Source: Inhella gelatinilytica
GTDB taxonomy: Bacteria > Pseudomonadota > Gammaproteobacteria > Burkholderiales > Burkholderiaceae_C
Reading direction: 5' to 3'
Length of the DNA: 64,000 nucleotides
Assembly: GCF_016093295.1 (NCBI RefSeq)
Contig: NZ_JAEDAL010000002.1
Span: 62,001-126,000, forward strand
Under the pieces are notes generated by a model, which was not told the DNA's origin, ran no database searches, and saw only the letters and a list, made by a program, of their open reading frames with translations. Within the stretch, counting starts at the first letter, position 1. The number at the start of each line of letters is the position of its first letter. Below, in pieces: positions 1-36,104 of the stretch. The position numbers and the translations under genes were made by a program.

Positions 1-1191
1 GTGCTGGACCCCTTGCGGTTCGCGCCCTGGGCGTACCAGCCCAAGGTCCTGGCCACCGAACTGTGGGTGGACGGCGTTGCCCGCCCCCTGAGCAGTTTGA
101 GCCCCCGCCTGCAGTTGCAACCGAACCACCGCAGCTTCCAGGTTGAATTCAGTGCCATTGACTTCAGCCTGCCGGGCCGCAACCGGTATCGCTATCGGAT
201 GCAGGGGGTTGACGCGGAGTGGCTGAAGGCCGACGCGGGGGAGCGCCGGGCGAGCTACGGCGGCTTGAGCCCCGGCCGCTATGTGCTCGAAATTCAAGGC
301 ACCAACCGCAATGGCCAATGGAGCCCGCACGCTTTGACCATCGAGGTCGAAGTCTTGCCGGCCTGGTGGCAGACCCTTTGGGCACGGCTGGCGATGGGGC
401 TGCTGGCGGTGCTGGGCATCACCGCCATCGTGCACGTGCGCACCGTGCTCTTGCGCCGGCGTCAACGGGTGCTGGAACAGAGCGTCAAGGAACGCACCGA
501 AGCCCTGGAAGCTGCCACCCGCGCCCTCGAAGAGGCGGCGATGAGTGACCCGCTCACGGGGCTGCGCAACCGCCGCTTCCTGATGGAGCGTTTGGACGAC
601 GACCTGCGTTTGGTGCTGCGCCAGCATGAAGAGGCCTTGCGCCAGGGGCGTGCGGCCGCGGACGCCGATTTGTGCTTTTTCATGATCGACATCGACCACT
701 TCAAGCAGGTCAACGACCAACACGGGCACGCCGCCGGGGACTCCGTGCTGGTTCAGATGCGTGAGCGTCTGCAGGAGGTGTTCCGCGAGTCGGATTACCT
801 GGTCCGCTGGGGCGGCGAAGAATTCTTGGTGGTGGCGCGGGCCAGCGACCGACACAGCGCGGCCGAGTTGGCTGAGCGGGCGCGCCGGGCGGTGGCGGAG
901 CGCCCCTTCGAGTTGCCGCAGGGGCGCACCCTGTTGCGCACCTGTTCCATCGGCTTTGCCTGCTATCCGCTGCTGCCCCTCCACCCACGGACTACGGGCT
1001 GGACCGTGGTGGTGGATTTGGCGGACGCCGCGCTCTATCAGGCGAAGCGAGGGGGCCGCAACCGGTGGGTTGGCGTGGTGGACGCCGGGAAGTGGACGGT
1101 TCAGGCGCTGGCGGACCTGCACCCGAGCGGTGAGGGCTTGCCGGAAGGCTTGAGCGTGGTCAGCGGTCCGTCGGCGGCGACGCCCGGCTGA
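1..1191 (+). CDS. Y_Y_Y/GGDEF diguanylate cyclase, 5'-truncated
   Basis: C-terminal part of a membrane-bound diguanylate cyclase that would make cyclic di-GMP. The frame is open at base 1, so the N-terminus, probably a two-component-type beta-propeller sensor, lies outside the window. Visible in order are a Y_Y_Y beta-sandwich domain (about residues 45-115 of this fragment), one transmembrane helix (about 122-147), a short coiled-coil linker and a GGDEF domain starting at DPLTGLRNRR. The active site reads GGEEF (271-275). RESD sits five residues before it, matching the RxxD inhibitory I-site, so product feedback is likely. The GTG at base 1 should not be taken as the start. The gene converges on the hemerythrin gene with a 3-bp gap. 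Confidence 0.88.
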   Translation: MLDPLRFAPWAYQPKVLATELWVDGVARPLSSLSPRLQLQPNHRSFQVEFSAIDFSLPGRNRYRYRMQGVDAEWLKADAGERRASYGGLSPGRYVLEIQGTNRNGQWSPHALTIEVEVLPAWWQTLWARLAMGLLAVLGITAIVHVRTVLLRRRQRVLEQSVKERTEALEAATRALEEAAMSDPLTGLRNRRFLMERLDDDLRLVLRQHEEALRQGRAAADADLCFFMIDIDHFKQVNDQHGHAAGDSVLVQMRERLQEVFRESDYLVRWGGEEFLVVARASDRHSAAELAERARRAVAERPFELPQGRTLLRTCSIGFACYPLLPLHPRTTGWTVVVDLADAALYQAKRGGRNRWVGVVDAGKWTVQALADLHPSGEGLPEGLSVVSGPSAATPG

Positions 1192-1795: not shown

Positions 1796-4561
1796 TTAGC
1801 GCATCGAGTAGCTGAAGCTCAGGAAGTAGCTGCGGCCGCGCGGGTCCCCGTAGGTCGGGTCCCAGGTGACCTGGAAGTACCGCGCTTGGTTGGTGAACGG
1901 TGGGGCGGTGTTGGCCACGTTCAGCACGCCAAAGCGCAGGCGCATTTGCGGGCTCACCTTGTAGCTGCCGGTCAAGTCCCACAGCGAGTAGGCCTCGACA
2001 TCGCGGTCGTTCCACTCCGGCGCGGCCAGGCCGGGCACGTTTTGGTCGCGGTAGCCCGACAGGTAGGTGTTGCTCAGCGTCAGGCCGAAGGGGCCGCGGT
2101 CCCAGTCCACGCTCACCTTGTGGCGCCAGCGTTGAACGGCCTTGTCGTCCTTGAACTTGCCCAAGCCGTCCACCAGGGGCGAGCGCGGGTCGGTGGCGAA
2201 CTTGTATTCGGTGACCAGCGTGCCGGCGGCGCTCACCGCAAAGCGGCCGATTTCGGTGGCGGTGCCGCGCCAGTTCAGCGCCACATCAATCCCCGAGGTA
2301 TTCAGCTTGCCGCGGTTCTCCTTCTTGACGTTGACGTAGTTGACGAAGCCGTCCGAGAAGCGCGCGACGATCTTGGGGTCGTTGTAGTAGACCGGGTTGG
2401 TGAAGATGGTCTCTTCGCCGATCTCGCTGATGATGTCCGTCTTGCGGATCGTCCAGTAGTCGATGGACCCGCTCCACTCCCGCGTGGGTTCGAACACCAC
2501 GCCCACGCTGGCCTGCTTGGATTTCTCGGGCTTGAGGTCAGGGTTGGAGGCGCGGTCCACCGGCATCTGCGCCACTTCGCCCGACACCGGGTCGCGCACA
2601 AAGCTGGCGGTGATGCCCGAGCGCAGCGGCAGGAACAACTCGGCCACCGAGGGCGCGCGGAAGCCGGTGCCGAACGAGGCGCGGGCCAGCAGGCTCTTGC
2701 TGGGGCGGAAGCTCAGGCCCAGCTTGGGGTTGGTGGTGGAGAGGCTTGGCGAGGTCAGCCCCGTGCGGGCATCGCTCACGCCTTGGTAGCGGTCATGGCG
2801 CAGGGCGAACTGGCCCTCCCACTGCTTGGTGAAGGGGGCGCTGATTTCCGCATAAACGCCCGCCACATTGCGCTGGTGGTCGGTGTCCGAGAGCAAGGCG
2901 CCCGAGCTGGAGCGGTCTCCCGTGATGTCATTGGCCTTCAGCACATCGGAGGCGCGGAACGCCACCTCTTCGCGGCGCAACTCGGCCCCCAGGGCCAGCA
3001 TGGCGTCGCCGCCGTCCAATTCGGCCAGCGCACGGGTCAGCTTGCCGTCCAGGCTGGTGGCGCGGCCTTCCGCACGGCGCGAACCGCCGTCCAGGCGAAT
3101 GGAATTCATGAAGGCTTGACCGGCTGTGCGGTCTGCGGGAGCCTGGAAGGGGTTGTACTGACCGGCCTTCAAGCCGGCTTCCAGTTTGGAGAACGACACC
3201 CAGCCCGACAAGTCGGTGTCGGTGACCTGATTGCGGCTGAAGTTCAGGGCCGTGTCGTAGTCCCACTCGCCAAAGTGGCCTTGGGCACCAGCCACGAGGC
3301 GGCTGCCCTCGCTCTCGACGCGGCTCACGCGCTTGCCGGCGTCCTCCAACCGGAAGCGGAAGTCCACCGGGGTGGTGATGCCGGTCGCAGCTTGCAGCGA
3401 GGCGGGCAGGGTGATGCCCGAGGCGGTGCGGAAGCGCGCCGTCGCCGGCGAGGCTGCGTAGTCGGTTTCGGCGCGGGTCAGCAGCAGCTCGGCAAACAGC
3501 TGGTGGTCGGGGGCCACCTGGAAGGTCACGCGGCCCAGGGCGCTGGCCTTGTCCGCCGCCGGGTAGATCTCCGAGCCGGCCACGTAGTCGTAGGAGCAGC
3601 CTTCGCGCCCGCCCAGGCCCAGGGCCACGACCGAATTCGGGTTGGGGGCACCCGTGCAAGCGGACTTGCCAAAGTTCACGCGGCGCGAGCCCGAGTTCGG
3701 GCCGCCCGGGTTCCAGGTGCCGTTGGCGTTGCTGCCCTTGAGCGCGGTGTTCGGGTTGGCCAGCACGAAGTTGTTCAGCGCCGTCAGCTGCGACGAGGTC
3801 AAGTCCACGTTCGCAGGGAACGAGTTGCTGGAGGTTTGCGGCGGCAGGCGGCCGGGCAGGTTGTATTCGCGAATGAAGTCGCGTTGCGTGGCATTGAGCT
3901 CGCCGAGCTTTTGCACGTCTAGGTTGAGGAAGGCGTTGAAGCCGTCCTTGCGCAGGTCGCCCACGCCGCCTGACACCGTCAGCGTGGTCTTCTTGGCCCC
4001 GCCTTCTTGCGTGTCCAGCGCATAGAGGTTCAGGTCTGCGCCTTGGTAATCCTTGCGGGTGATGAAGTTGATCACGCCGCCCATGGCGTCCGTGCCATAG
4101 ATGGCCGAGGCGCCGTCTTTGAGCACTTCCACGCGCTGGATCGCGCCGGCGGGGATGGTGTTCAGGTCCACGCCCGCGTTGTCCCCCGGGCTGGCGAAGT
4201 TGGCGAGGCGGCGGCCGTTGAGCAGCACCAGGGTCGAGGACACCCCCAGGCCGCGAAGGTTGGCGCCGTTGAAGCCGCGCTGGCCGCCCATCTGGTCACT
4301 GACGCTGGCGCCATCGGTCAGGCCGCCCACGTTGGAGGTGATTTTTTGCAGCAGCTCGGCCGCGGTGGTCACGCCGGACTTGGCGATGTCCTCGCGCTTG
4401 ATGACTTCCACCGGCAGGGCGGTTTCGCCGTCGATGCGCTTGATGCTGGAGCCCGTGACCTCGATGCGTTCGAGCTTGACGTCTTCAGCATGGGCCAGGG
4501 GTAAGGCCAGCGCCATCAGGGCGGCGCGGGCGATGGCGTGAAGGGGAACAGGTCGGTTCAT
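1796..4561 (-). CDS. TonB-dependent outer-membrane receptor
   Basis: Protein of 921 residues: a signal peptide (about 1-25, ending AHA), a plug domain beginning EDVKLERIEVTGS and containing LLNGRRL and DGASAIYGTDAMGG, then a long C-terminal beta-barrel with alternating aromatic strands. It is predicted to take up a ligand across the outer membrane using TonB/ExbBD energy. The large size and Asn/Ser/Gly-rich early barrel loops fit the class that imports polymers or peptides rather than a ferric siderophore, but the ligand cannot be read from sequence. It is transcribed divergently from the cyanophycinase operon, so cyanophycin fragments are the first candidate substrate (inference). A strong terminator follows. 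Confidence 0.92.
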   Translation of the reverse strand: MNRPVPLHAIARAALMALALPLAHAEDVKLERIEVTGSSIKRIDGETALPVEVIKREDIAKSGVTTAAELLQKITSNVGGLTDGASVSDQMGGQRGFNGANLRGLGVSSTLVLLNGRRLANFASPGDNAGVDLNTIPAGAIQRVEVLKDGASAIYGTDAMGGVINFITRKDYQGADLNLYALDTQEGGAKKTTLTVSGGVGDLRKDGFNAFLNLDVQKLGELNATQRDFIREYNLPGRLPPQTSSNSFPANVDLTSSQLTALNNFVLANPNTALKGSNANGTWNPGGPNSGSRRVNFGKSACTGAPNPNSVVALGLGGREGCSYDYVAGSEIYPAADKASALGRVTFQVAPDHQLFAELLLTRAETDYAASPATARFRTASGITLPASLQAATGITTPVDFRFRLEDAGKRVSRVESEGSRLVAGAQGHFGEWDYDTALNFSRNQVTDTDLSGWVSFSKLEAGLKAGQYNPFQAPADRTAGQAFMNSIRLDGGSRRAEGRATSLDGKLTRALAELDGGDAMLALGAELRREEVAFRASDVLKANDITGDRSSSGALLSDTDHQRNVAGVYAEISAPFTKQWEGQFALRHDRYQGVSDARTGLTSPSLSTTNPKLGLSFRPSKSLLARASFGTGFRAPSVAELFLPLRSGITASFVRDPVSGEVAQMPVDRASNPDLKPEKSKQASVGVVFEPTREWSGSIDYWTIRKTDIISEIGEETIFTNPVYYNDPKIVARFSDGFVNYVNVKKENRGKLNTSGIDVALNWRGTATEIGRFAVSAAGTLVTEYKFATDPRSPLVDGLGKFKDDKAVQRWRHKVSVDWDRGPFGLTLSNTYLSGYRDQNVPGLAAPEWNDRDVEAYSLWDLTGSYKVSPQMRLRFGVLNVANTAPPFTNQARYFQVTWDPTYGDPRGRSYFLSFSYSMR

Positions 4562-4643
4562 GGCGGGGTTCAGGGGTAAGAGGTGGAGAACGCCACGACT
4601 CTAGAAACGCGGCCGGCGCGGCCCTACAGGGTTGGCCCCCCGG

Positions 4644-4711
4644 GGTCGCTTCGCCGCAAGTGGGCGTCGCAAGCCTGCAAGTCCGGCTGGCTGACTTGCG
4701 GGATTGCGACA
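4644..4711 (+). promoter_or_regulatory. ArgR-type operator half-sites, 21-bp spacing
   Basis: The intergenic region holds two tandem half-sites on the plus strand, GGTCGC-N8-AA (4644-4659) and CGTCGC-N8-AA (4665-4680), exactly 21 bp apart. A third on the minus strand, TGTCGC-N8-AA (4711 down to 4696), matches exactly. TGTCGC-N8-AA-N5 is the half-site consensus known for Pseudomonas ArgR. Part of the same pattern is repeated GCAAGT/ACTTGC hexamers and a perfect palindrome, GCACTTGCAAGTGC, at 4713-4726. An ArgR-like regulator is encoded in the operon downstream. Binding itself is inferred. Confidence 0.6.
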
Positions 4712-4787
4712 TGCACTTGCAAGTGCCCTGTAAATGAGCGCCTTCTGCGGTGCAACCCGCTGGCCCGCGACGCGTGGGGCTGACAAC

Positions 4788-6044
4788 ATGCCGGCCATGA
4801 ACGCAATCCGAACCCTGGTCGCGCTGTTGACCTGTTGGCCGCTGTGGGGGCAAGCCCAGACCGCTGTGGTGGCAGGCGGCGCCCTGCGCTTTGACAACGA
4901 CGCGGTGTGGCAGCGCATCGTGGACGAGGCCGGAGGGCGCGGCGCGCCCATCGCCGTTTTTGCCACCGCCGCCGGCAACCCGGCGCGCAGCGGCGCGCTG
5001 ATCGTCGAGGCGCTGCAGCGCCGCGGGGCGCAGGCCCGCTTCATCCCGGTGGCCCCCAAGCTCAAGGGTGTGGACCTCCCACAGCAGCTGAACGACCCGG
5101 CGCTGATCGAGCAGGTGCGCCAATCGCGGGGCGTGTTCTTTTCGGGTGGGGCGCAGGAGTTGATCGTGGACACGCTGCAGCCCGGCGGCGAGGCGACGCC
5201 GATGCTCCAAGCCATCCGTCAGGTGTTCGACCGAGGCGGCGTGGTGGCGGGCACCAGCGCGGGCGCGGCCATCATGAGCCGCATGATGTTCCGCGACGCC
5301 CAGGACAACCACCAGATCCTCAAAGGCCGCTGGCGCGCGGGCCAGGAGTACGACCGCGGCCTCGGCTTTGTGGGGCCGGACTTGTTCATCGACCAGCACT
5401 TCTTGAAGCGCGGGCGCATCGGGCGCCTGCTGCCGGCCATGCAGGCGCTGGGCTATGGCGTGGCCCTGGGGGTCGAAGAGAACTCGGCCGTGGTGGTCAA
5501 GCAGGGCGAGGTGGAGGTCATCGGCCAACGAGGGGCCTTGCTGGTGGATTTGCGCGAGGCCGTGCGCGACGCCCGTGAGCCCCATTTCAACCTGAAGGGC
5601 GCCGTGCTCAGCTACCTGGACAGCGGCGACCGCCACCACCTGGGCACGGGCGTCACCACGCCCTCGGCCCACAAGCTGCGCGAACCCCGGCTGGACCCCG
5701 CAGCTCCCGACTTCAATCCTGGATTGCAGGGCGAGCCGTACTTCCTGGACATTCTGGGCGACCAGACCGTGGTGACCGCCATGGCCCACCTGATCGAGGG
5801 CGGCCTGCCCGAGGTGCGCGGCCTGGCCTACCGGGCCCGCCCGCGCCCGGACGATGAGGCGCCCGAGCTGGGCTTTGAGTTCCGCCTCTACACGGGCCCC
5901 GGCACGGTCGGTTGGTTCACCGGGGCCCGGGGTGGCGAGGACTACACCCTGCTCAAGGTTCGCCTCGACGTGCGCCCCGTGCGCGTGGTCCAGCCCCTGG
6001 TCCAGCCTTGGGCCCCGCCTGAGCCAGCTGCTCCCTCCCGTTGA
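4788..6044 (+). CDS. cphE: Exported cyanophycinase (peptidase family S51)
   Basis: Cyanophycinase, a serine exopeptidase releasing beta-Asp-Arg dipeptides from cyanophycin (multi-L-arginyl-poly-L-aspartate). From the ATG at 4788 it is 418 residues. A signal peptide (ending GQAQ) makes it an exported, CphE-like form acting on external polymer. The nucleophile Ser157 lies in GTSAGAA, and FFSGGAQE precedes it, both typical of S51. The ATG at 4797 is an equally good start; the upstream ATG at 4734 would bury the signal peptide. It heads an operon with a CphZ-like hydrolase, a carrier, an ArgR-like regulator and arginine succinyltransferase. The symbol rests on the signal peptide and family match. 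Confidence 0.85.
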   Translation: MPAMNAIRTLVALLTCWPLWGQAQTAVVAGGALRFDNDAVWQRIVDEAGGRGAPIAVFATAAGNPARSGALIVEALQRRGAQARFIPVAPKLKGVDLPQQLNDPALIEQVRQSRGVFFSGGAQELIVDTLQPGGEATPMLQAIRQVFDRGGVVAGTSAGAAIMSRMMFRDAQDNHQILKGRWRAGQEYDRGLGFVGPDLFIDQHFLKRGRIGRLLPAMQALGYGVALGVEENSAVVVKQGEVEVIGQRGALLVDLREAVRDAREPHFNLKGAVLSYLDSGDRHHLGTGVTTPSAHKLREPRLDPAAPDFNPGLQGEPYFLDILGDQTVVTAMAHLIEGGLPEVRGLAYRARPRPDDEAPELGFEFRLYTGPGTVGWFTGARGGEDYTLLKVRLDVRPVRVVQPLVQPWAPPEPAAPSR

Positions 6045-6086
6045 CCCTTCCGTTAAACGTTTCGCAGGCCTCGTGCCTGCCTCCCC

Positions 6087-7202
6087 ATGCACACCCAATT
6101 CCATGAACTGCCGGCCGGCAGCGTGGGCACGCAGCGCCGTCTGCGCAGCCTGCACTTCGGGGCCCAGGCCACCGGCCGCAAGGCCTACCTGCAAGCTGCC
6201 TTGCACGCGGACGAAGTCCCGCCCCTGCTGGTCGCGCAGCACCTGATCGAACGCCTCGCGGCGGCCGAGGCGGCCGGCGCCATCCCCGGCGAGATCGTGC
6301 TCGTGCCCATGGCCAACCCGATTGGTCTGAGCCAGGACTTGCAGGGCTCGGCCCTCGGGCGCTTTGACCTGGCCAGCGGGCTGAACTTCAACCGCGACTT
6401 CCGCGACCTCACAGGCGCCCTGAAGCGCGGGCTGGAGGGGCAGCTCACGGCGGACGCGGCCGAGAACACCCGGCGCATCCGTGCAGCCGCGCGGGCCGAG
6501 CTGGAGGCCTGGGAGCCGCAATCGGAAGCCGAAGCGCTGAAGAAGCTGCTGCAAGGCCTGGCACTGGACGCCGATCTGGTGCTGGACCTGCACTGCGACA
6601 ACCAAGCCGTGCTGCACGTCTATACGGGCACGGCCAACGTGCCCGCCCTGCAGCCGCTTGCGGCCTACCTGGGGGCCCAGGCCCTGCTGACCTGCGACCT
6701 GGCCGGCGGTGACCCCTTCGACGAAGCCCTGACCCGCCCGTGGTGGGAGCTGGCCACGCACTTTGCGGGTCGCCACCCTATCGCCCTGGGCTGTGTGGGC
6801 GGCACGGTGGAGTTGCGCGGCGAGACCGAGGTCTCCCACACCCTGGCGGCGCAGGACGCGAGCGCGCTGATGGACTACCTGACCCAGCAAGGTCACCTGG
6901 ACGGCCCCGTGCCGCCGCTGCCAACGGGTTGTGGGGCCACACCCCTGGAGGGGGTGGATGCCGTGGTGGCGCCCTGCGCCGGCGTGCTGGTCTTTGCCGT
7001 GCAACCGGGGGACTGGGTCGAGGCGGGGCAGCTGGTGGTGGAGGTCATCGACCCGCTGACCGACGCCCGCACCCCCTTGCACGCCCGCGCCACCGGCCGT
7101 TGTTTTGCCCGCACCGCTCGGCGTTATGCCACACGGGGCATGCGCTTGGCCAAGGTGGCCGGGCCCACTCCCATCCGTTCTGGAAAGCTCCTCTCACCAT
7201 GA
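6087..7202 (+). CDS. cphZ: M14/aspartoacylase-family hydrolase, CphZ (AotO)-like
   Basis: Zinc hydrolase of the succinylglutamate desuccinylase/aspartoacylase family, 371 residues. Zinc ligands fit His40 and Glu43 (HADE) and His169 (DLHCDN). A biotinyl/lipoyl-like beta domain forms the C-terminus (about 285-365), as in this family. CphZ, which includes Pseudomonas AotO from the aot-argR operon, belongs to this family and splits beta-Asp-Arg into Asp and Arg. Here the gene sits between a cyanophycinase and an argR-like gene, which makes CphZ the best call. Alternatives are AstE (succinylglutamate desuccinylase) or an N-acyl amino acid deacylase. It lacks a signal peptide, so dipeptide would be cleaved inside the cell. 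It overlaps the next gene by ATGA. Confidence 0.75.
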   Translation: MHTQFHELPAGSVGTQRRLRSLHFGAQATGRKAYLQAALHADEVPPLLVAQHLIERLAAAEAAGAIPGEIVLVPMANPIGLSQDLQGSALGRFDLASGLNFNRDFRDLTGALKRGLEGQLTADAAENTRRIRAAARAELEAWEPQSEAEALKKLLQGLALDADLVLDLHCDNQAVLHVYTGTANVPALQPLAAYLGAQALLTCDLAGGDPFDEALTRPWWELATHFAGRHPIALGCVGGTVELRGETEVSHTLAAQDASALMDYLTQQGHLDGPVPPLPTGCGATPLEGVDAVVAPCAGVLVFAVQPGDWVEAGQLVVEVIDPLTDARTPLHARATGRCFARTARRYATRGMRLAKVAGPTPIRSGKLLSP

Positions 7203-8584
7203 AGCTGCGCCTGCCCAATACCTACGTTTTGTTGTTCGCGCTGCTGGCGCTGATCGCCCTGATGACCTGGGTCGTCCCCGCCGGGCGCTTCGACACCCAG
7301 CTGGTCGAGGGCAAAAAGATCATCGTCGCGGGCTCCTACCACGTGGTGGAGTCCAAGCCTCAGGGCCTGGTGGCGCTGCTGACTTCGCCCATCCGGGGCT
7401 TTGTCGAGGCCGCGCAAATCATCGGCTTTGTGCTGATCGTGGGCGGGGCTTTTGCCGTGCTGCAAAAGACCGAGGCGATCGACTCGCTGATCAAGTCGGT
7501 GGCCAAGGCCCATTCGCGCTCGCCCTTGGTGCGGGCGGCGGTGATTCCGGTGTTCGTCACCCTGTTCTCGCTGGGTGGCGCGACGTTTGGCATGGCGGAG
7601 GAGGCCATCCCCTTCGTGCTGATCTTCATCCCGCTGGCGCTGGCGCTGCGGTATGACACGCTGACGGGCGTGGCCATTCCCTTCGTGGGCTCCCAGGTGG
7701 GCTTTGCCACGGCATTTCTGAACCCCTTCAACGTGGGCGTGGCGCAGGGCATCGCCGGCGTGCCCATGTTCTCGGGGATTGGCTTTCGGGCCCTCTGCTG
7801 GGCGATTGCCACGGGCCTGACCATTGGCTTTCTGGTCTGGTGGGCGCGCCGCGTGCAGCGCGCGCCGCAACTCAGCCCCACCTACGAGATGGACCAGGAG
7901 CGCCGCCGCACCCTGGACCTGGCCAGCTTTGAGCAGTTCAGCGGCATGAGCGTTCGGCACCAGGCGGTGCTGGCGCTCTTCGTGCTCACGCTCGGCGCCA
8001 TGATCGTCGGCGTGGTTCGCTATGGCTGGTACATCGACGAAATCGCGGCGCTCTTCTTTGCCATGGCGATCGGCGTGGCCCTGGTGGGGCGGCTCGCGAC
8101 GGACGAGTGGATTGGCGCCTTTGTGCAAGGGGCCAAGGACTTGGTGGGCACGGCCCTGGTGATTGCGCTGGCCAAGGGCACGGTGATCCTGATGCGCGAA
8201 GGCCAAATCATCGATACGCTGCTGAACGCGCTCGCGCCGCTGGTGGAGTCCAGCAGCCCGGTGTTCTCGGCCCACAAGATGTTTGCGATTCAGTCGGTGA
8301 TCAACTTCTTCATCCACTCCGGCACCGGTCAGGCGGCCCTGACCATGCCCATCATGGCGCCGCTGGCCGACCTGGTGGGGGTGACGCGGCAGACCGCCGT
8401 CCTGGCCTTCCAGTTCGGCGAGCTGACCACGCCCATCATCCCGACCTCAGGCATCACCGTGGGGGTGCTGGCGCTGGCCGGTGTGCCGTTCGGGCGCTGG
8501 GTGCGGTGGATGCTGCCGCTGCAAGGTCTTTACCTGGTCATGGCCCTGGTGCTGCTGGCCATTCCACACTGGATCGGCTGGTGA
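7199..8584 (+). CDS. YfcC/ArcD-like amino-acid or peptide carrier
   Basis: Polytopic membrane protein of 461 residues with about 12 hydrophobic segments, of the YfcC family (C4-dicarboxylate/arginine-ornithine carrier group). Recognisable features are the opening LPNTYVLLFAL followed by MTWVVPAGRFD, the GMAEEAIPF segment and the conserved HSGTGQAA loop near residue 375. It probably moves arginine, ornithine or beta-Asp-Arg across the inner membrane; the substrate is inferred from its place between the CphZ-like hydrolase and the ArgR-like regulator. In Pseudomonas the matching position is held by the AotJQMP ABC transporter. The start overlaps the previous stop (ATGA) and its stop overlaps the next start (TGATG). 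Confidence 0.82.
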   Translation: MKLRLPNTYVLLFALLALIALMTWVVPAGRFDTQLVEGKKIIVAGSYHVVESKPQGLVALLTSPIRGFVEAAQIIGFVLIVGGAFAVLQKTEAIDSLIKSVAKAHSRSPLVRAAVIPVFVTLFSLGGATFGMAEEAIPFVLIFIPLALALRYDTLTGVAIPFVGSQVGFATAFLNPFNVGVAQGIAGVPMFSGIGFRALCWAIATGLTIGFLVWWARRVQRAPQLSPTYEMDQERRRTLDLASFEQFSGMSVRHQAVLALFVLTLGAMIVGVVRYGWYIDEIAALFFAMAIGVALVGRLATDEWIGAFVQGAKDLVGTALVIALAKGTVILMREGQIIDTLLNALAPLVESSSPVFSAHKMFAIQSVINFFIHSGTGQAALTMPIMAPLADLVGVTRQTAVLAFQFGELTTPIIPTSGITVGVLALAGVPFGRWVRWMLPLQGLYLVMALVLLAIPHWIGW

Positions 8585-9561
8585 TGCAGACGCAGCGCGT
8601 CGCCCTCTGTTTGCTGCCGGGCTTTTCGCTCCAGGCGCTGGCGGGGGTGCACGACGCGCTGACGGCCGCCAACGAGCTGCTGGACGACTGCCAGTACGAG
8701 CTCCGCTTGTTGGGGGGCGGCTTGGTGGCGGCGACCGGCGGGGCCCGCGTGGCCACGGTGTCCCCCGATCTGGAAGCGGACGCCCCCTGGGCCGCGGCCT
8801 TTTTGCTGGGCTCACCCTCGGCGCTGGAGGAGGGGCCGGTGGTGCGCGAGTGGCAGCGCCTGTGTCGCCGCTGGGCCGCGCAAGGCGCGGTGCTGGCGGG
8901 GGTGGACGGCGGCGCCTCCGTGCTGGCCAGCCTTGGCTTGCTGGATGGGCAGCGGGCCTGCGCCTCCTGGGCGCTGTTGGACACCCTGGCGCACCGCCAC
9001 CCTGGGGTGGCCTGGGCCCAGGGTTTGTGGGAGATCAGCTTGGACGGCCGCTGGCTCACCGCTGCGGGTGGGGGCGCCGCGTTGGACCTGACGGCCGCGT
9101 GGCTGGTGCAGCGCCACGGTGAGCGCCTGGGTCCCGAGCTCGCCTGGGCGCTGGGCGTGCGCGGCTTTCGCGGGCGGGACGAGCGCCAGCGTGCGCTGGA
9201 GCCGCGCGCCAACCACCCCAAGCTGGCCGAGGCCCTGGCCCTGATGGAGGCCAACCTGGGTGAGCCCCTGCCCACCGAAGACATCGCACGGCTGGTGGGC
9301 GTTTCGCGCCGGCAGCTGGAGCGGGTCTTCAAGCAGCACCTGGGCGTGTTGCCCCTGCGCCACTACCTGGATTTACGCCTGCAACGCGCCCGCCGCCTGC
9401 TGCAGCAGTCCAGCCAGTCCATCCTGCAAATCGGGCTGTCCTGCGGTTTTTCCTCGGGCCCGCACTTCTCGAATGCCTATCGGGCCCATTTCGGCCACAC
9501 CCCGCGGGACGAACGCCGGTTGCGCGGCGCCGGCGCGGAGGAGATTCCGACTCATGAGTGA
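8584..9561 (+). CDS. argR: AraC-family regulator with DJ-1/PfpI domain, ArgR-like
   Basis: Transcription factor of 325 residues. An N-terminal DJ-1/PfpI-type sensor domain (about 1-185) is followed by a C-terminal AraC-type double helix-turn-helix (about 220-315), with a first helix region IARLVGVSRRQLERVFKQHL and the typical second-helix segment CGFSSGPHFSNAYRAHFG. This architecture is shared by GlxA, CdhR and Pseudomonas ArgR, the arginine-responsive activator of the aru and aot operons. The arginine-related neighbours and TGTCGC-N8-AA half-sites upstream of the operon favour ArgR. It is translationally coupled at both ends: TGATG with the carrier gene and an 8-bp overlap with the succinyltransferase gene. 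Confidence 0.78.
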   Translation: MQTQRVALCLLPGFSLQALAGVHDALTAANELLDDCQYELRLLGGGLVAATGGARVATVSPDLEADAPWAAAFLLGSPSALEEGPVVREWQRLCRRWAAQGAVLAGVDGGASVLASLGLLDGQRACASWALLDTLAHRHPGVAWAQGLWEISLDGRWLTAAGGGAALDLTAAWLVQRHGERLGPELAWALGVRGFRGRDERQRALEPRANHPKLAEALALMEANLGEPLPTEDIARLVGVSRRQLERVFKQHLGVLPLRHYLDLRLQRARRLLQQSSQSILQIGLSCGFSSGPHFSNAYRAHFGHTPRDERRLRGAGAEEIPTHE

Positions 9562-10585
9562 CTTCCTGTTGCGGCCGGTGGCGCCGGCCGACCTGCTCGC
9601 GCTGATGCGCATGGCCGCCGCCAGCGCGGATGGCATCAGCTCGCTGCCGCACGACGAAGCGCGGCTGGCCGCGCGCATCCAGGCCTCGCGCCACAGCTTT
9701 GCCAGCGCAGACGACGCCAGCGGGGAGGAGACCTACCTCTTCGTGCTCGAAGACCTGCAGCGGGGCGCGGTGGTGGGCTGCTCCGGCATCGCCGCCAGCG
9801 CGGGCTTTTACGACCGCTTTTACAGCTACCGCAACGAGTTCGTGGTGCACGCCAGCCAGGCCCTGGGCGTGACCCAGCGCATGCACACGCTGCACCTGTG
9901 CCACGACCTCACCGGCTGCACCTTGCTGACCTCGTTCTACCTGGCGCCGGAGTACGACCAGGGCCCGGCGGCCCAGCTGCTGTCGCGAGCCCGCCTGCTG
10001 TTCATCCACGCCCACGCGGAGCGCTTTTCAAGCCGCATTGCGGCGGAGAACCCCGGCGTCGTGGACGCCCAAGGCCAAAGCCCTTTCTGGGACGCCGTGG
10101 GCCGGCGCTTCTTCGGCATGGACTACCCGCAGGCCGAGTCCGTGGTGGGCGGGCGCAGCAAGGCCTTCATCGCCGACCTCATGCCCCCGTCCCCGCTCTA
10201 CGTGGCCCTGCTGCCCGAAGCCGCGCAGTGGGCCTTGGGGCAGTTGCACCCGGTGGGGGAGCTGCCGTTCTCCATCCTCGCCGACGAAGGCTTTGACGCC
10301 GACACCTATGTGGACATCTTCGACGGCGGCCCCACGGTGGATGCCCCCCTGGCCAGCCTGCGCACGGTGCGCCATGCGCGCTGGCACACGGTTCAGCCCC
10401 AAGGCGTCGCCCCGCCGGCGGCCGGGGTTCCCAGCCTGCTGGTGCGCCCCGAGCGCGGCCGCTTTGCCGCGCTGCTGGGCACCGTCGGCACCCACTTGAG
10501 CGCCGCGGCCGTGGCCCGGGCCGAAGGGCAAGCCGGCGAGCGCTGGCTCTGTGCGCCGCTCGATCCTGTGGAGGGCGAAGCATGA
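9554..10585 (+). CDS. astA: Arginine N-succinyltransferase
   Basis: First enzyme of the arginine succinyltransferase (AST) pathway: succinyl-CoA plus L-arginine gives N2-succinylarginine. It is 343 residues, the normal AstA/AruFG length, and starts MSDFLLRPV. Family hallmarks are FYSYRNEFVVHA, CHDLTGCTLLTSFYL, a GPAAQLLSRARLLFIHAH helix, and QGQSPFWDAVGRRFFGMDY followed by a Pro-rich LMPPSPLYVALLP segment. The other pathway genes (astB, astC, astD) are not in this window. Its stop overlaps the next gene by ATGA. It links the arginine freed from cyanophycin to carbon catabolism. Confidence 0.92.
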   Translation: MSDFLLRPVAPADLLALMRMAAASADGISSLPHDEARLAARIQASRHSFASADDASGEETYLFVLEDLQRGAVVGCSGIAASAGFYDRFYSYRNEFVVHASQALGVTQRMHTLHLCHDLTGCTLLTSFYLAPEYDQGPAAQLLSRARLLFIHAHAERFSSRIAAENPGVVDAQGQSPFWDAVGRRFFGMDYPQAESVVGGRSKAFIADLMPPSPLYVALLPEAAQWALGQLHPVGELPFSILADEGFDADTYVDIFDGGPTVDAPLASLRTVRHARWHTVQPQGVAPPAAGVPSLLVRPERGRFAALLGTVGTHLSAAAVARAEGQAGERWLCAPLDPVEGEA

Positions 10586-11187
10586 AGGACCTGACCCTTG
10601 CCCGCATCACCCCGCGCCTGGGCCTGGACCTGCCGCGCTACCACCTGCGCCTGGGGCGTGTGGTGCATGCGGCCGCGGAGCTCCAGCTCTTCCGCGTCCA
10701 GACCACGCTTTTGCTGAGCAACGACCTGACGGGCGAGACCGAGTTGCACCTCAGCCCGGACGCCCTCGACCCCGCCCCCGCGGTGGAGGCCGCGCAGCGC
10801 CAAGCGGCGGCCGCGCCGGCGCAGCATGGCAGCCAGCTGGTGGTGGAGTTGCCGGGCTGGCGCGATGCGGCCGGCCGCAGCCCGTTTTGGGAGGCCTTCG
10901 GCGCGCGCTTTTTTAAAGGCGACCCGGCCGCCGCCGAAGCCCAGCTGGGCCCCGCCTGGCGCACGCATTTGGCGGCCCTGCTGCCGCGACAACTGGTTTA
11001 CCTCTCCTTCCTGGGCGAGGCAGCCGAAGCCTGCGCGGGCCGCGTGCGGGCCGACGCCGAGCCGCTCGTCCAAGCCCTCAGCGCGCTGGGCTTTGAGCCC
11101 AGTGGGCAGCTGAGGTTGGACGATGGCGGGCCGGTGATGCGGCGGCGGCTGCAGTTGTCCGGCCCAGTTGATTCGACGATGCGATGA
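10582..11187 (+). CDS. Truncated arginine N-succinyltransferase paralogue
   Basis: A 201-residue relative of AstA covering only its middle. LRLGRVVHAAAEL..LLLSNDLTGETELHL aligns with the AstA core, followed by GWRDAAGRSPFWEAFGARFF and LAALLPRQLVYLSFLG, matching the SPFW and LP..LY segments of the full-length neighbour. Roughly the first 90 and the last 60-70 residues of AstA are absent. Pseudomonas has two full-length subunits, AruF and AruG, forming a heteromer, so this may be a shrunken second subunit or a decaying duplicate. The open frame, intact motifs and ATGA coupling to astA argue for continued expression. Last gene of the operon. Confidence 0.7.
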   Translation: MKDLTLARITPRLGLDLPRYHLRLGRVVHAAAELQLFRVQTTLLLSNDLTGETELHLSPDALDPAPAVEAAQRQAAAAPAQHGSQLVVELPGWRDAAGRSPFWEAFGARFFKGDPAAAEAQLGPAWRTHLAALLPRQLVYLSFLGEAAEACAGRVRADAEPLVQALSALGFEPSGQLRLDDGGPVMRRRLQLSGPVDSTMR

Positions 11188-11240
11188 CAAGGGGGCAGCG
11201 CGTTTAGAGTGGGCCTTTCCTTCGAGGTAGGTCCAACTCC

Positions 11241-11594
11241 ATGACTTGGCAAAAGACGGAGCGAATGGCGGGTGGGCAGGTCAGCGCAGGCTTATGGGTG
11301 GGCCTCCTGGCCCCTTTTGCTCTGGTGGCCTGCAGCACCCCGCAAAGTATGAGCGCAGCGGAACTGGCATCAATCGGCCTACAAGATGGCACGAGGTACT
11401 GGGAGGCGCAACAGAAGCTCGCCCAACGGGGCTATCGCTGTTACGTCACGGGAGCTGCCCGAGAGCACTTCGATTGCACGCTGACGACGGGATATTTCCC
11501 CTCCTGCGTGTTGCGTGTCACTTTCGCGGTTGACGAGAAAAACCGGGTGTCGAGGCTGACTGTGAGCGAACCGGCATGCATCGGAACGCCATAA
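11241..11594 (+). CDS. Small putative lipoprotein
   Basis: A 117-residue protein of unknown function. An N-terminal hydrophobic segment ends in the lipobox-like LVAC, giving a probable lipidated Cys near residue 31, followed by STPQSMSAAELASIG. The mature part contains four further Cys residues and a region YWEAQQKLAQRGYRCYVTG that looks like a short alpha/beta fold. GAGG lies about 14 nt before the ATG, which is weak spacing. It is a single gene downstream of the arginine operon, converging on fdhD. No family was recognised. Confidence 0.55.
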   Translation: MTWQKTERMAGGQVSAGLWVGLLAPFALVACSTPQSMSAAELASIGLQDGTRYWEAQQKLAQRGYRCYVTGAAREHFDCTLTTGYFPSCVLRVTFAVDEKNRVSRLTVSEPACIGTP

Positions 11595-11625
11595 GCGGGC
11601 AGACCCTTCGTATGTCTATTTCCCC

Positions 11626-12441
11626 TCACGCATACCGCGTCGCCCGCCCCTCGCGCACAAAGCCATAGAGCGCCATGCCGCAGGCCTCGGCGGCGCGCAC
11701 GGCCAGTCCCGTCGGGGCGCTGACGGCGGCCAGCAGGCCGCAGCCCACGCGGGCGGTTTTGTGGACGAGCTCGTAGCTGGCGCGGCTGGTGACCAGAAAG
11801 CCACCGTCGGCCGGGTTCAGGCCGTGGCGGGCCAGGCGGCCGATGAGTTTGTCCAGCGCGCAGTGGCGGCTGGCGTCTTCGGCCACGGTGTGGATCGTGC
11901 CTTGGGCATCGATCCACGCGGCGGCGTGGGCCCCGCCCGTGCGGGCGTTGAGCGGTTGGTGGCGCGGCAGCGCTTGCAGCGCGCGGGCCAGCGCACCTTC
12001 CGCCAGTTCGATGGGGGTGAGCCGCCCGGCCGGCAGGGTGAGTAGGCTGCGCTGGTCTTCGATGCCGCACAGGCCGCAGCCCCCCGGCGCCGCCCCCAGG
12101 CGACGCCGCTGGCGCAGGGCGTCCAGCCGGTGCTCGGGCAGCTCCACGAACACGCTCAAACCCGCGCCGGTGGGCACGGCGTGCAGCTCGCCCACCTCGC
12201 TTGCCCGCTCCACCAAGCCCTCGCTCAAACAAAAGCCGAGGGCCAACTCTTCGGCCAGCAGCGGCGTGGCCATCAGGGTCAGCGCCACGCTGTCGTTGAA
12301 CACCAGGGTGATGGGCGCCTCTTCAACCAAGGGCTCGCGCGCCGGCTGGCCCGTGCCGCCCAGCGCGCAGACGGCGCTCTGCCCGTCAGCAAAGGCGTCG
12401 AGCGGGGGCAGGGCCCAGCTTGGCGCGGAGGGTTGGCTCAT
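11626..12441 (-). CDS. fdhD: FdhD sulfurtransferase for formate dehydrogenase
   Basis: FdhD passes sulfur from the IscS persulfide to the bis-MGD cofactor, which is needed for formate dehydrogenase activity. Length (271 residues) is typical. The catalytic CxxC is seen as GGCGLCGIED near residues 113-116, and conserved FdhD segments follow: a LALGFCLSEGL region and DASRHCALDKLIGRL with a GFLVTSRASYELVHK stretch. The start overlaps the stop of the upstream molybdoenzyme gene by ATGA, so the two are translationally coupled and the molybdoenzyme is its obvious client. Confidence 0.93.
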   Translation of the reverse strand: MSQPSAPSWALPPLDAFADGQSAVCALGGTGQPAREPLVEEAPITLVFNDSVALTLMATPLLAEELALGFCLSEGLVERASEVGELHAVPTGAGLSVFVELPEHRLDALRQRRRLGAAPGGCGLCGIEDQRSLLTLPAGRLTPIELAEGALARALQALPRHQPLNARTGGAHAAAWIDAQGTIHTVAEDASRHCALDKLIGRLARHGLNPADGGFLVTSRASYELVHKTARVGCGLLAAVSAPTGLAVRAAEACGMALYGFVREGRATRYA

Positions 12442-35220: not shown

Positions 35221-35799
35221 GTGCTGAACAGTTCCCTTGAAACCCGCTTGCTGCAAGCCTTGTTGCGGCAGGCGGATGCCCCGCGCTTCCCGCTGACCGT
35301 GGCCGGGGTGGCGCTGGCGGCAACGTTGTCCATGTCTGTGCCCTTTGCCTCCCTCTTGGTGGCGGCGGTGTTGATGGCGCCGCGCCGCTGGTGGGCCATC
35401 GCGGGGGGCGCCAGCCTGGGGGCTGCCCTGGGGGCGGCCCTGCTGTACTGGGCCTTCCATCACATGGGCTGGGACGCGCTGGCGCAACGCTATCCCGACC
35501 TGATGCGCTCCGCGGCCTGGGTGGATGCCACGCGCTGGCTCAGTGACTGGGGGGTTTGGGCCCTGTTGGCGATTGCGGCCTTGCCTTTGCCGCTCACGCC
35601 CGCTCTGGCGTTCGCGGCCTTGACCAATTTGCCCATGGCCGCGGTGGTAGCAGCTCTATGGCTGGGCAAGCTCGTTAAGTACAGCGTCTACGCGGGCGCG
35701 GCAGCGCACTTTCCGCAGCGCTGGTTGACGCGCGCTTTGCGCCGCCTGCACATCCTGGACGCGGCCTCGCAGCGGGCCCACGGCAGCCGCCTCCGCTAA
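35221..35799 (+). CDS. VTT/DedA-like small membrane protein
   Basis: Membrane protein of 192 residues from a GTG start. Several hydrophobic helices, an LPLPLTP segment after a membrane-spanning stretch (AIAALPLPLTPALAFAAL) and a late GKLVKYSVYAGAA match the short YqaA-like branch of the VTT (SNARE-associated/DedA) superfamily, which affects membrane lipid or ion homeostasis. Family assignment is moderate. It lies between the copper pair and the B12 riboswitch. Confidence 0.6.
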   Translation: MLNSSLETRLLQALLRQADAPRFPLTVAGVALAATLSMSVPFASLLVAAVLMAPRRWWAIAGGASLGAALGAALLYWAFHHMGWDALAQRYPDLMRSAAWVDATRWLSDWGVWALLAIAALPLPLTPALAFAALTNLPMAAVVAALWLGKLVKYSVYAGAAAHFPQRWLTRALRRLHILDAASQRAHGSRLR

Positions 35800-35810
35800 A
35801 CTGACCCCAT

Positions 35811-36017
35811 TGTTGGTGCGCGCGGCCTCAAGCCTGGGGTCGCCGTTCAACGGGAATCAGCAGGGCTCCCACCACCCGGTGAGCCGCCCCAAACTGAGCT
35901 GCCCCCGCAACGGTAAGCGGACGAAGGCCTCGCGCCTTCCGCTCCTGTCGAAGCCACTGGATCGCACGATCTGGGAAGGACACAGGGGTTGTTCCGTCAG
36001 CCCGGATACCGGCCAAC
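35811..36017 (+). promoter_or_regulatory. Cobalamin (B12) riboswitch
   Basis: Adenosyl/methylcobalamin riboswitch in the btuB leader. Diagnostic blocks are in order: ACGGGAA-CAG-AGGGCTCCCACC (35849-35873), the core GCTGCCCCCGCAACGGTAAG (35899-35918), GAAGCCACTG (35950-35959), TCTGGGAAGGACACAGGG (35970-35987) and the B12 box AGCCCGGATACCGGCC (35999-36014). Outer stem TTGG (35813-35816) can pair with CCAA (36013-36016). A GC-rich stem downstream (about 36022-36060) is the probable expression platform. It represses btuB and probably the following transport genes when B12 is plentiful. Confidence 0.93.
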
Positions 36018-36104
36018 TGGGGGGTGCGCCGCGCGAGCGGTGGCGCCATGAGGTGCGCGGCTGCGGGGAAGCAGCGGTGCACGATGTCTGCTGGTTCTTT
36101 CTTC

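Follow-up and report, generated by a model that had tools for sequence, protein, structure and literature searches.

Cyanophycin is the nitrogen store of cyanobacteria. In Pseudomonas the genes for arginine uptake and catabolism form an aot-argR operon with an adjoining aru operon for the arginine succinyltransferase (AST) pathway, and AotO is a CphZ. Loci for cyanophycin utilisation, such as that of strain L21-Spi-D4, are described in PMC10206079 as a cyanophycinase with iadA/iaaA and a transporter. The ARG box of P. aeruginosa has been given as TGTCGCN6GNAA in tandem with 5 bp between boxes (PMC10963909) and as TGTCGCN8AAN5 (PMC4997734). We describe here a window of 64,000 nucleotides from Inhella gelatinilytica (C16:62001-126000 of a 3.52 Mb assembly rated 99.97% complete), in which seven genes at 1796-11187 comprise a tonB receptor gene divergent from a plus-strand row of six, cphE to AstA2 (Table 1). 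We read these genes, at a probability of about 0.72, as an ArgR-controlled cyanophycin-scavenging locus that would descend from an aot-argR-aru supercluster like that of Pseudomonas.

ARG boxes between tonB and cphE

The 235-bp gap between tonB and cphE holds a tandem pair of ARG boxes and one inverted box. The tandem boxes read GGTCGC-N8-AA (4644) and, 21 bp on, CGTCGC-N8-AA, so that only the first base departs from consensus, and the inverted box at 4696 fits the consensus fully. The string GTCGC-N8-AAGT occurs three times in the 64 kb, always inside this gap (shuffles gave a mean of 0.45 and reached three in 1 of 100). Within the I. gelatinilytica genome the tandem pattern at up to one mismatch has a single match, which is exact and lies in the same gap; at that stringency the search for the tandem pattern gave no other match that might mark a wider ArgR regulon.

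Conservation was counted over 29 gaps upstream of cphE (in L060, of the AraC gene), 28 of them distinct, taken from relatives and the window. The strict tandem GTCGC-N16-GTCGC is present in 26 of the 28 distinct gaps, the relaxed tandem in 27 and the inverted half-site in 26. In the 25 distinct gaps with both elements, the distance from tandem to inverted box is 52-53 (5 gaps), 63-65 (11), 74-75 (8) or 97 bp (1), a second inverted match in L067 (at -15) having been set aside. The spacings fall near whole helical turns, with a Rayleigh R of 0.93 at 10.5 bp, 0.85 at 10 and 0.95 at 11 that is inflated by shared ancestry (24 spacings from 26 gaps, without L060, L064 and L019); because R is similar at all three periods, no single helical period is singled out. 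Half-sites number 77 in the 11,540 bp of 27 gaps (L019 left out) versus 80 in the other 531,033 bp of these loci, a 44-fold higher density. Exact tandem matches total 15 in 14 genomes; 13 are in tonB-cphE gaps, the remaining two in G062:C1 and G011:C1. In some AST-bearing loci ARG half-sites stand before aotJ or between the AraC and AstA genes.

The AraC protein of the row scores 20.7 bits for DJ-1_PfpI, below the cut-off of 26.6, and its best NCBIfam model is GbdR (191.3 of 480 bits). It is 38-51% identical to the AraC protein encoded between aotP and the AruF-type genes in seven AST-bearing loci (in one, over 220 residues only), and synteny with sister loci and with G260 places it in the ArgR slot between aotP and the aru genes. 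The first-pass annotation of this DNA had called it an ArgR-like AraC regulator; the argR slot is indeed occupied, with ARG boxes between tonB and cphE, and ArgR-type control of the locus is strongly predicted. In L070 (~9907-10764) the AraC protein can be aligned to that of the window only over residues 210-314 (75%), and its N-terminal domain looks different.

The M14 protein and the putative exported cyanophycinase

Residues 8-364 of the M14 protein match 8ein (E 1.1e-75) and 8eip (7.4e-75), its nearest solved relatives by sequence, the next being 3fmc at 5.7e-23. According to their titles, these two entries are wild-type CphZ of Acinetobacter baylyi and an E251A form in complex with 'beta-...'; in the sequence listing both carry the molecule name succinylglutamate desuccinylase. 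A fold search with the AlphaFold model (pLDDT 74.5) placed the CphZ structures at TM 0.88, with 40% identity in the structural alignment, and canonical AstE (1yw4) far behind at TM 0.45. H40, E43, H169 and E242, which include the zinc ligands and the catalytic Glu, are invariant across 10 aligned sequences, and the difference between 8ein and 8eip in the aligned part falls on E242. In four pairs of relatives dN/dS of CphZ was 0.18-0.41.

The earlier assignment to the CphZ family is thus borne out, and a CphZ type is supported by both sequence and predicted fold. It is very improbable that the protein instead completes a route of AST type, as a desuccinylase of succinylglutamate or a hydrolase of acyl amino acids: PF24827 (AstE_AspA_cat) does exceed its cut-off, but no NCBIfam model matched, the nearest structures are CphZ, and CphE and CphZ occur together in 14 of 16 AstA loci. 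With no NCBIfam match and CphZ structures nearest, an AstE identity was rejected.

The S51 protein reaches 30.3 bits for PF03575 (cut-off 23.9) and matches the cyanophycinases 7uqv (E 5.6e-18), 3en0 and 7uqw in phmmer. Its N-terminus is hydrophobic and ends in AQA, a putative signal peptide as judged by eye only. The carrier belongs to PF03606; against the YfcC equivalog NF008611 it scores 379.2 bits, short of the cut-off of 500.

Gene order and its recurrence in relatives

Every gene named in the first-pass annotation is present and the receptor is divergent from the operon, as it had said. Its count of six genes with one succinyltransferase falls one short, the seventh being a second AstA of 201 residues. 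From the M14 gene through the carrier, AraC, AstA1 and AstA2 genes, each gene shares 1 to 8 bases with the next, and these five are therefore likely to be transcribed together; 42 bases separate the S51 and M14 genes.

Table 1. Features of the locus in window coordinates.
Feature	Position	Strand	Basis
TonB-dependent outer-membrane receptor, 921 aa	1796..4561	-	Pfam Plug and beta-barrel over cut-off
Tandem ARG boxes, 16-mers 4644-4659 and 4665-4680, 21-bp period	4644..4680	+	match to published consensus
Inverted ARG box, TGTCGC-N8-AA	4696..4711	-	match to published consensus
CphE-like S51 cyanophycinase, putatively exported, 415 aa	4797..6044	+	PF03575 over cut-off
CphZ-type beta-Asp-Arg dipeptide hydrolase (predicted), M14, 371 aa	6087..7202	+	PF24827/PF00246; 8ein, 8eip
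DcuC/YfcC-family secondary carrier, 461 aa; proposed beta-Asp-Arg importer	7199..8584	+	PF03606, 332.7 bits
ArgR-type regulator (putative GATase1/DJ-1 domain and AraC HTH), 325 aa	8584..9561	+	HTH_18 over cut-off
AstA1, full-length AruF-like acyltransferase, 343 aa	9554..10585	+	PF04958; TIGR03243, 354.8 bits (cut-off 284.35)
AstA2, short degenerate AruG-like partner, 201 aa	10582..11187	+	PF04958, 105.3 bits, positions 75-265 of 337

Whether this order recurs was a question raised with the first annotation, and it does so beyond chance. With the S51 protein as query, 15 loci were obtained from named genomes. All seven genes stand in the same order in 10; two (L019, L023) run into a contig end with the order intact up to it; and three (L025-L027) hold, of the seven, the S51 gene only. 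All 12 named loci in which CphE and CphZ occur together have the divergent TonB receptor as well. In L025 and L026 the CphE-like gene (56%) stands without CphZ, AraC or AstA relatives in the locus. The contig of L019 is labelled as a Methylotenera metagenome-assembled genome, its Roseateles-like locus is close to L018, and it is perhaps mis-binned. In L014, L016, L017, L018, L020 and L022 a divergent S51-like open reading frame (ORF; ~450-510 aa, 26-32% to the second S51 protein of the I. gelatinilytica genome) follows AstA2.

A sample of 150 family genomes yielded 46 with a match to the M14 protein, weak in two cases (E above 1e-4). AstA is found in 14, each time as one full and one short gene, making 16 pairs; 30 other family genomes have a strong CphZ match and no AstA. 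By tblastn, limited to the genes of its query list, CphZ lies within ~4 kb of 15 of the 16 pairs, CphE is in the locus of 15, and both accompany 14. The one AstA locus lacking CphE belongs to G011, a genome that carries a CphE on another contig, with a TonB gene and tandem boxes of its own. The named-locus and family sets overlap, since the gaps of G028 and L022 are identical.

An AstA pair in genomes without AstB or an over-cut-off AstD

A search of the I. gelatinilytica genome covering AstA, AstB, AstD and PF24827 found AstA only, which exceeds the cut-off of the subfamily model TIGR03243 and stays below those of the equivalogs TIGR03244 and TIGR03245. AstB gave no match; the eight matches to the AstD model are all under cut-off (best 240.4 versus 579.3 bits); and none of the four PF24827 proteins reaches the cut-off of the AstE model TIGR03242. 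Possible AstE genes at L009 and L012 were considered and discarded. AstC is not in the window operon as judged from ORFs and Pfam, a genome-wide search for it not having been made. The earlier claim that the unit is joined to arginine succinyltransferase catabolism is therefore not supported as worded.

The same pattern extends to relatives. By eye, from the first 110 residues of ORFs of at least 120 aa, no AST gene was recognised after AstA2 in eight named loci. Neither AstB nor an AstD over cut-off was found in any of 15 family genomes (the 14 with AstA and G149), weaker AstD matches occurring in each. As a control, 250 genomes were drawn from the order: AstA was found in 41, and AstB in 37 of these; those with AstA and no AstB were the I. 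gelatinilytica genome, G281, G350 and G306 (a 105-position fragment). AstB is thus present in 0 of 14 AstA-bearing family genomes versus 37 of 40 elsewhere in the order (Fisher p 2e-10), although the 14 share ancestry and the absence may reflect a single loss. A separate AST-less case was seen in L107 (G350) and L108 (G281), whose AstA pairs are both full length, with no AstB in the genome and no CphZ in 20 kb.

Conservation within the pair was scored on 42 columns kept in at least 95% of 20 canonical AstA sequences. AstA1 retains 40, the exceptions being D at 208 for E and A at 323 for L; D at 208 is found in 14 of 16 YfcC-type rows (13 of 15 without a duplicate) versus 2 of 10 others. AstA2, which matches TIGR03243 over positions 72-260 of 335, retains 21, is changed at 13 and does not reach 8. 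Its model (pLDDT 68.4) gave one fold match at E below 0.001, 1yle, which is matched by sequence too. In four pairs of relatives dN/dS was 0.10-0.22 for AstA1 and 0.19-0.28 for AstA2, indicating purifying selection. AstA2 is probably the non-catalytic partner in a maintained pair.

The missing ends of AstA2, its changes at 13 of the 34 conserved columns still covered, and the loss of the partner genes could indicate decaying leftovers of a lost AST operon; we consider this improbable, given that all 14 family genomes with AstA have retained both the full and the short gene and that dN/dS is low for both. It is easier to entertain, if still doubtful, that the locus supplies an AST-like pathway in which unlinked, non-orthologous enzymes carry out the later steps, in which case AstA1/AstA2 may use ornithine from arginase or arginine deiminase and bypass AstB. 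The well-kept columns of AstA1 and the sub-cut-off AstD matches are in accord with such a route, whereas the missing AstB, over-cut-off AstD and AstE, and the lack of AST genes recognised by eye behind AstA2 in eight named loci, argue against it. Because AstB and a recognisable AstD are missing, we propose that the pair lies outside the canonical AST pathway. Tentatively, and with somewhat less than even confidence, AstA1 and AstA2 may be a repurposed acyltransferase for cyanophycin-derived arginine, which would acylate arginine, ornithine or beta-Asp-Arg without belonging to any AST pathway. AstA2 would then be a pseudo-subunit, and the pair would be retained together with cphE, cphZ and the receptor under a single ArgR operator of three helically phased boxes, serving both divergent genes.

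Origin of the locus and a second locus in the same genome

Synteny was sampled in 20 stretches of DNA that surround AstA genes outside the family, and five of them (G216, G162, G267, G364, G260) have the order aotJQM-cphZ-aotP-AraC-gap-AstA-AstA, and in G260 cphE stands in front, giving cphE-aotJQM-cphZ-aotP-argR-aruC-aruF-aruG-aruD-aruB; its gap holds an AstC-type transaminase, with AstD (806 bits, cut-off 579) and AstB (746, cut-off 538) downstream. An AstA tree was built from 41 rows and rooted at its midpoint for display only. In it, 16 canonical rows lie on one side of a branch (99/86), the AruF of G260 joins 25 AST-less AstA1 in a group of 26 (100/99), and 15 YfcC-type rows with three Aot-type rows form a set of 18 (100/99). 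This material suggests a remodelled aot-argR-aru supercluster, in which cphE would have been gained, aruC, aruD and aruB lost, aruG shortened and the ABC importer replaced by YfcC. YfcC needs two changes on the tree and the forks inside the 18-row set are partly ambiguous, so that one importer swap is no more than a possibility.

The I. gelatinilytica genome has two matches each for the M14 protein and the cyanophycinase model. The second cphE-cphZ pair lies on C17 at ~36.8-39.2 kb (locus L003:7573-11975, C17 ~35.6-40.0 kb), preceded by a pyridoxal-phosphate (PLP) enzyme near the cysteine desulfhydrase Cds1 (529.9 of 600 bits) and followed by an AotP/HisP-like ATPase. Its S51 protein is putatively exported, and the M14 copies of the two loci are 44% identical. 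The 20 kb fetched there yielded neither a relative of AraC, AstA or AotJQM nor an ARG half-site. Within the genus, the arrangement recurs in G149, whose genome has no AstA, and G021 has tonB and cphE-cphZ-aotP-AraC-AstA1-AstA2 beside its PLP gene. The AstA1 of the window is most like that of L018 from Roseateles puraquae (78%), so lateral acquisition of the YfcC-type locus is plausible.

Proposed working and the role of the carrier

In the working that we propose, exported CphE would clip cyanophycin to beta-Asp-Arg, polymer fragments would be bound or imported by the TonB receptor, the YfcC carrier would take beta-Asp-Arg inward, standing in for an ABC importer, and CphZ would split it into Asp and Arg. 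Rising arginine, acting through ArgR on the three tonB-cphE boxes, would then switch on both directions (we infer activation rather than repression), and AstA1/AstA2 would still acylate a basic amino acid (arginine, ornithine, possibly the dipeptide) without feeding the canonical AST pathway.

The earlier statement that the carrier replaces an ABC importer holds for the window operon, set beside sister loci with AotJQM/AotP, but not for the genome as a whole, which has the second cphE-cphZ-aotP locus. YfcC could also be an exchanger for Arg/Orn or for Asp that exports an end product, the dipeptide entering by another system, for which the AotP-like ATPase of the second locus could serve. A secondary carrier of the IT superfamily that takes basic amino acids, ArcE of S. 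pneumoniae (TC 2.A.118), swaps Arg and Orn (PMC5300872); its kinship with the window carrier is an assumption. An exchanger is the less likely reading, since YfcC (6 loci) and AotP with or without AotJQM (8) alternate in the 16 AstA loci, two having no recognised importer, and were not seen together in one locus.

Besides the ArcE precedent, several points weigh against a scavenging locus under ArgR control. The tandem is absent from the 695 bp covered upstream of CphE in L064 (G062), and the relatives that conserve the boxes are not independent. In all 14 genomes a reversed control pattern has more matches than the real pattern when up to one mismatch is allowed, and 0.73 tandem matches are expected per window at up to two mismatches, so only exact tandem matches carry weight. 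No sigma-70-like promoter was found in 4500-11700, where a promoter and terminator scan gave no signal above shuffles. The S51 protein scores 124.5 bits for TIGR02069, 2.1 under the cut-off of 126.6, and the two AstA pairs with no recognised importer gene are in L059 and L069, the latter also without CphZ.

Other features

A cobalamin riboswitch (72.6 bits) lies at 35797-36031 on the plus strand. The segment 28001-30000 has a G+C of 0.54 and a GC skew of 0.18, versus G+C of 0.63-0.67 in the adjoining 2-kb steps, and no Rfam match. At L004:1849-8191 of the same genome, reaching into window positions 1-1191, two large consecutive proteins of 1048 and 1041 aa look by eye sensor-like, with GGDEF-type domain ends.

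Comparison with known systems

The locus offers a testable case in which an amino-acid uptake and catabolic supercluster could have been converted to polymer scavenging; living relatives show intermediates, and the conserved operator of the locus predicts the inducer. It also poses the question of why the first AST enzyme persists, with a degenerate partner, although the second and a recognisable fourth are missing; an answer would reveal a new fate for the arginine of cyanobacterial nitrogen stores, and meanwhile the case cautions against annotating such genomes with the AST pathway. Among titles and abstract openings of open-licence papers, none was found to describe ARG boxes upstream of cphE or a pair of AstA genes within cyanophycin loci; novelty is provisional.

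The window locus resembles Pseudomonas aot-argR and its adjoining aru (AST) operon in having ARG boxes and in the relative order of CphZ, an ArgR-type regulator and the AruF/AruG homologues; it differs in having cphE and tonB, in YfcC for AotJQM/AotP, in lacking aruC, aruD and aruB, and in its short aruG. The order-level genomes G216, G162, G267 and G364, with their aotJQM-cphZ-aotP-AraC-gap-AstA-AstA order, also have AstB. Compared with P. aeruginosa AruF (1YLE), AstA1 is a full-length family member, and AstA2, like 1yle by sequence and model, is shortened and altered at conserved columns, in a genome without AstB or over-cut-off AstD. As in cyanophycin utilisation loci of the L21-Spi-D4 kind, a cyanophycinase, a dipeptidase and a transporter are clustered, apparently for scavenging; in the window, however, the predicted dipeptidase is of CphZ type, not IadA/IaaA, and the ARG boxes and the AstA pair are additional.

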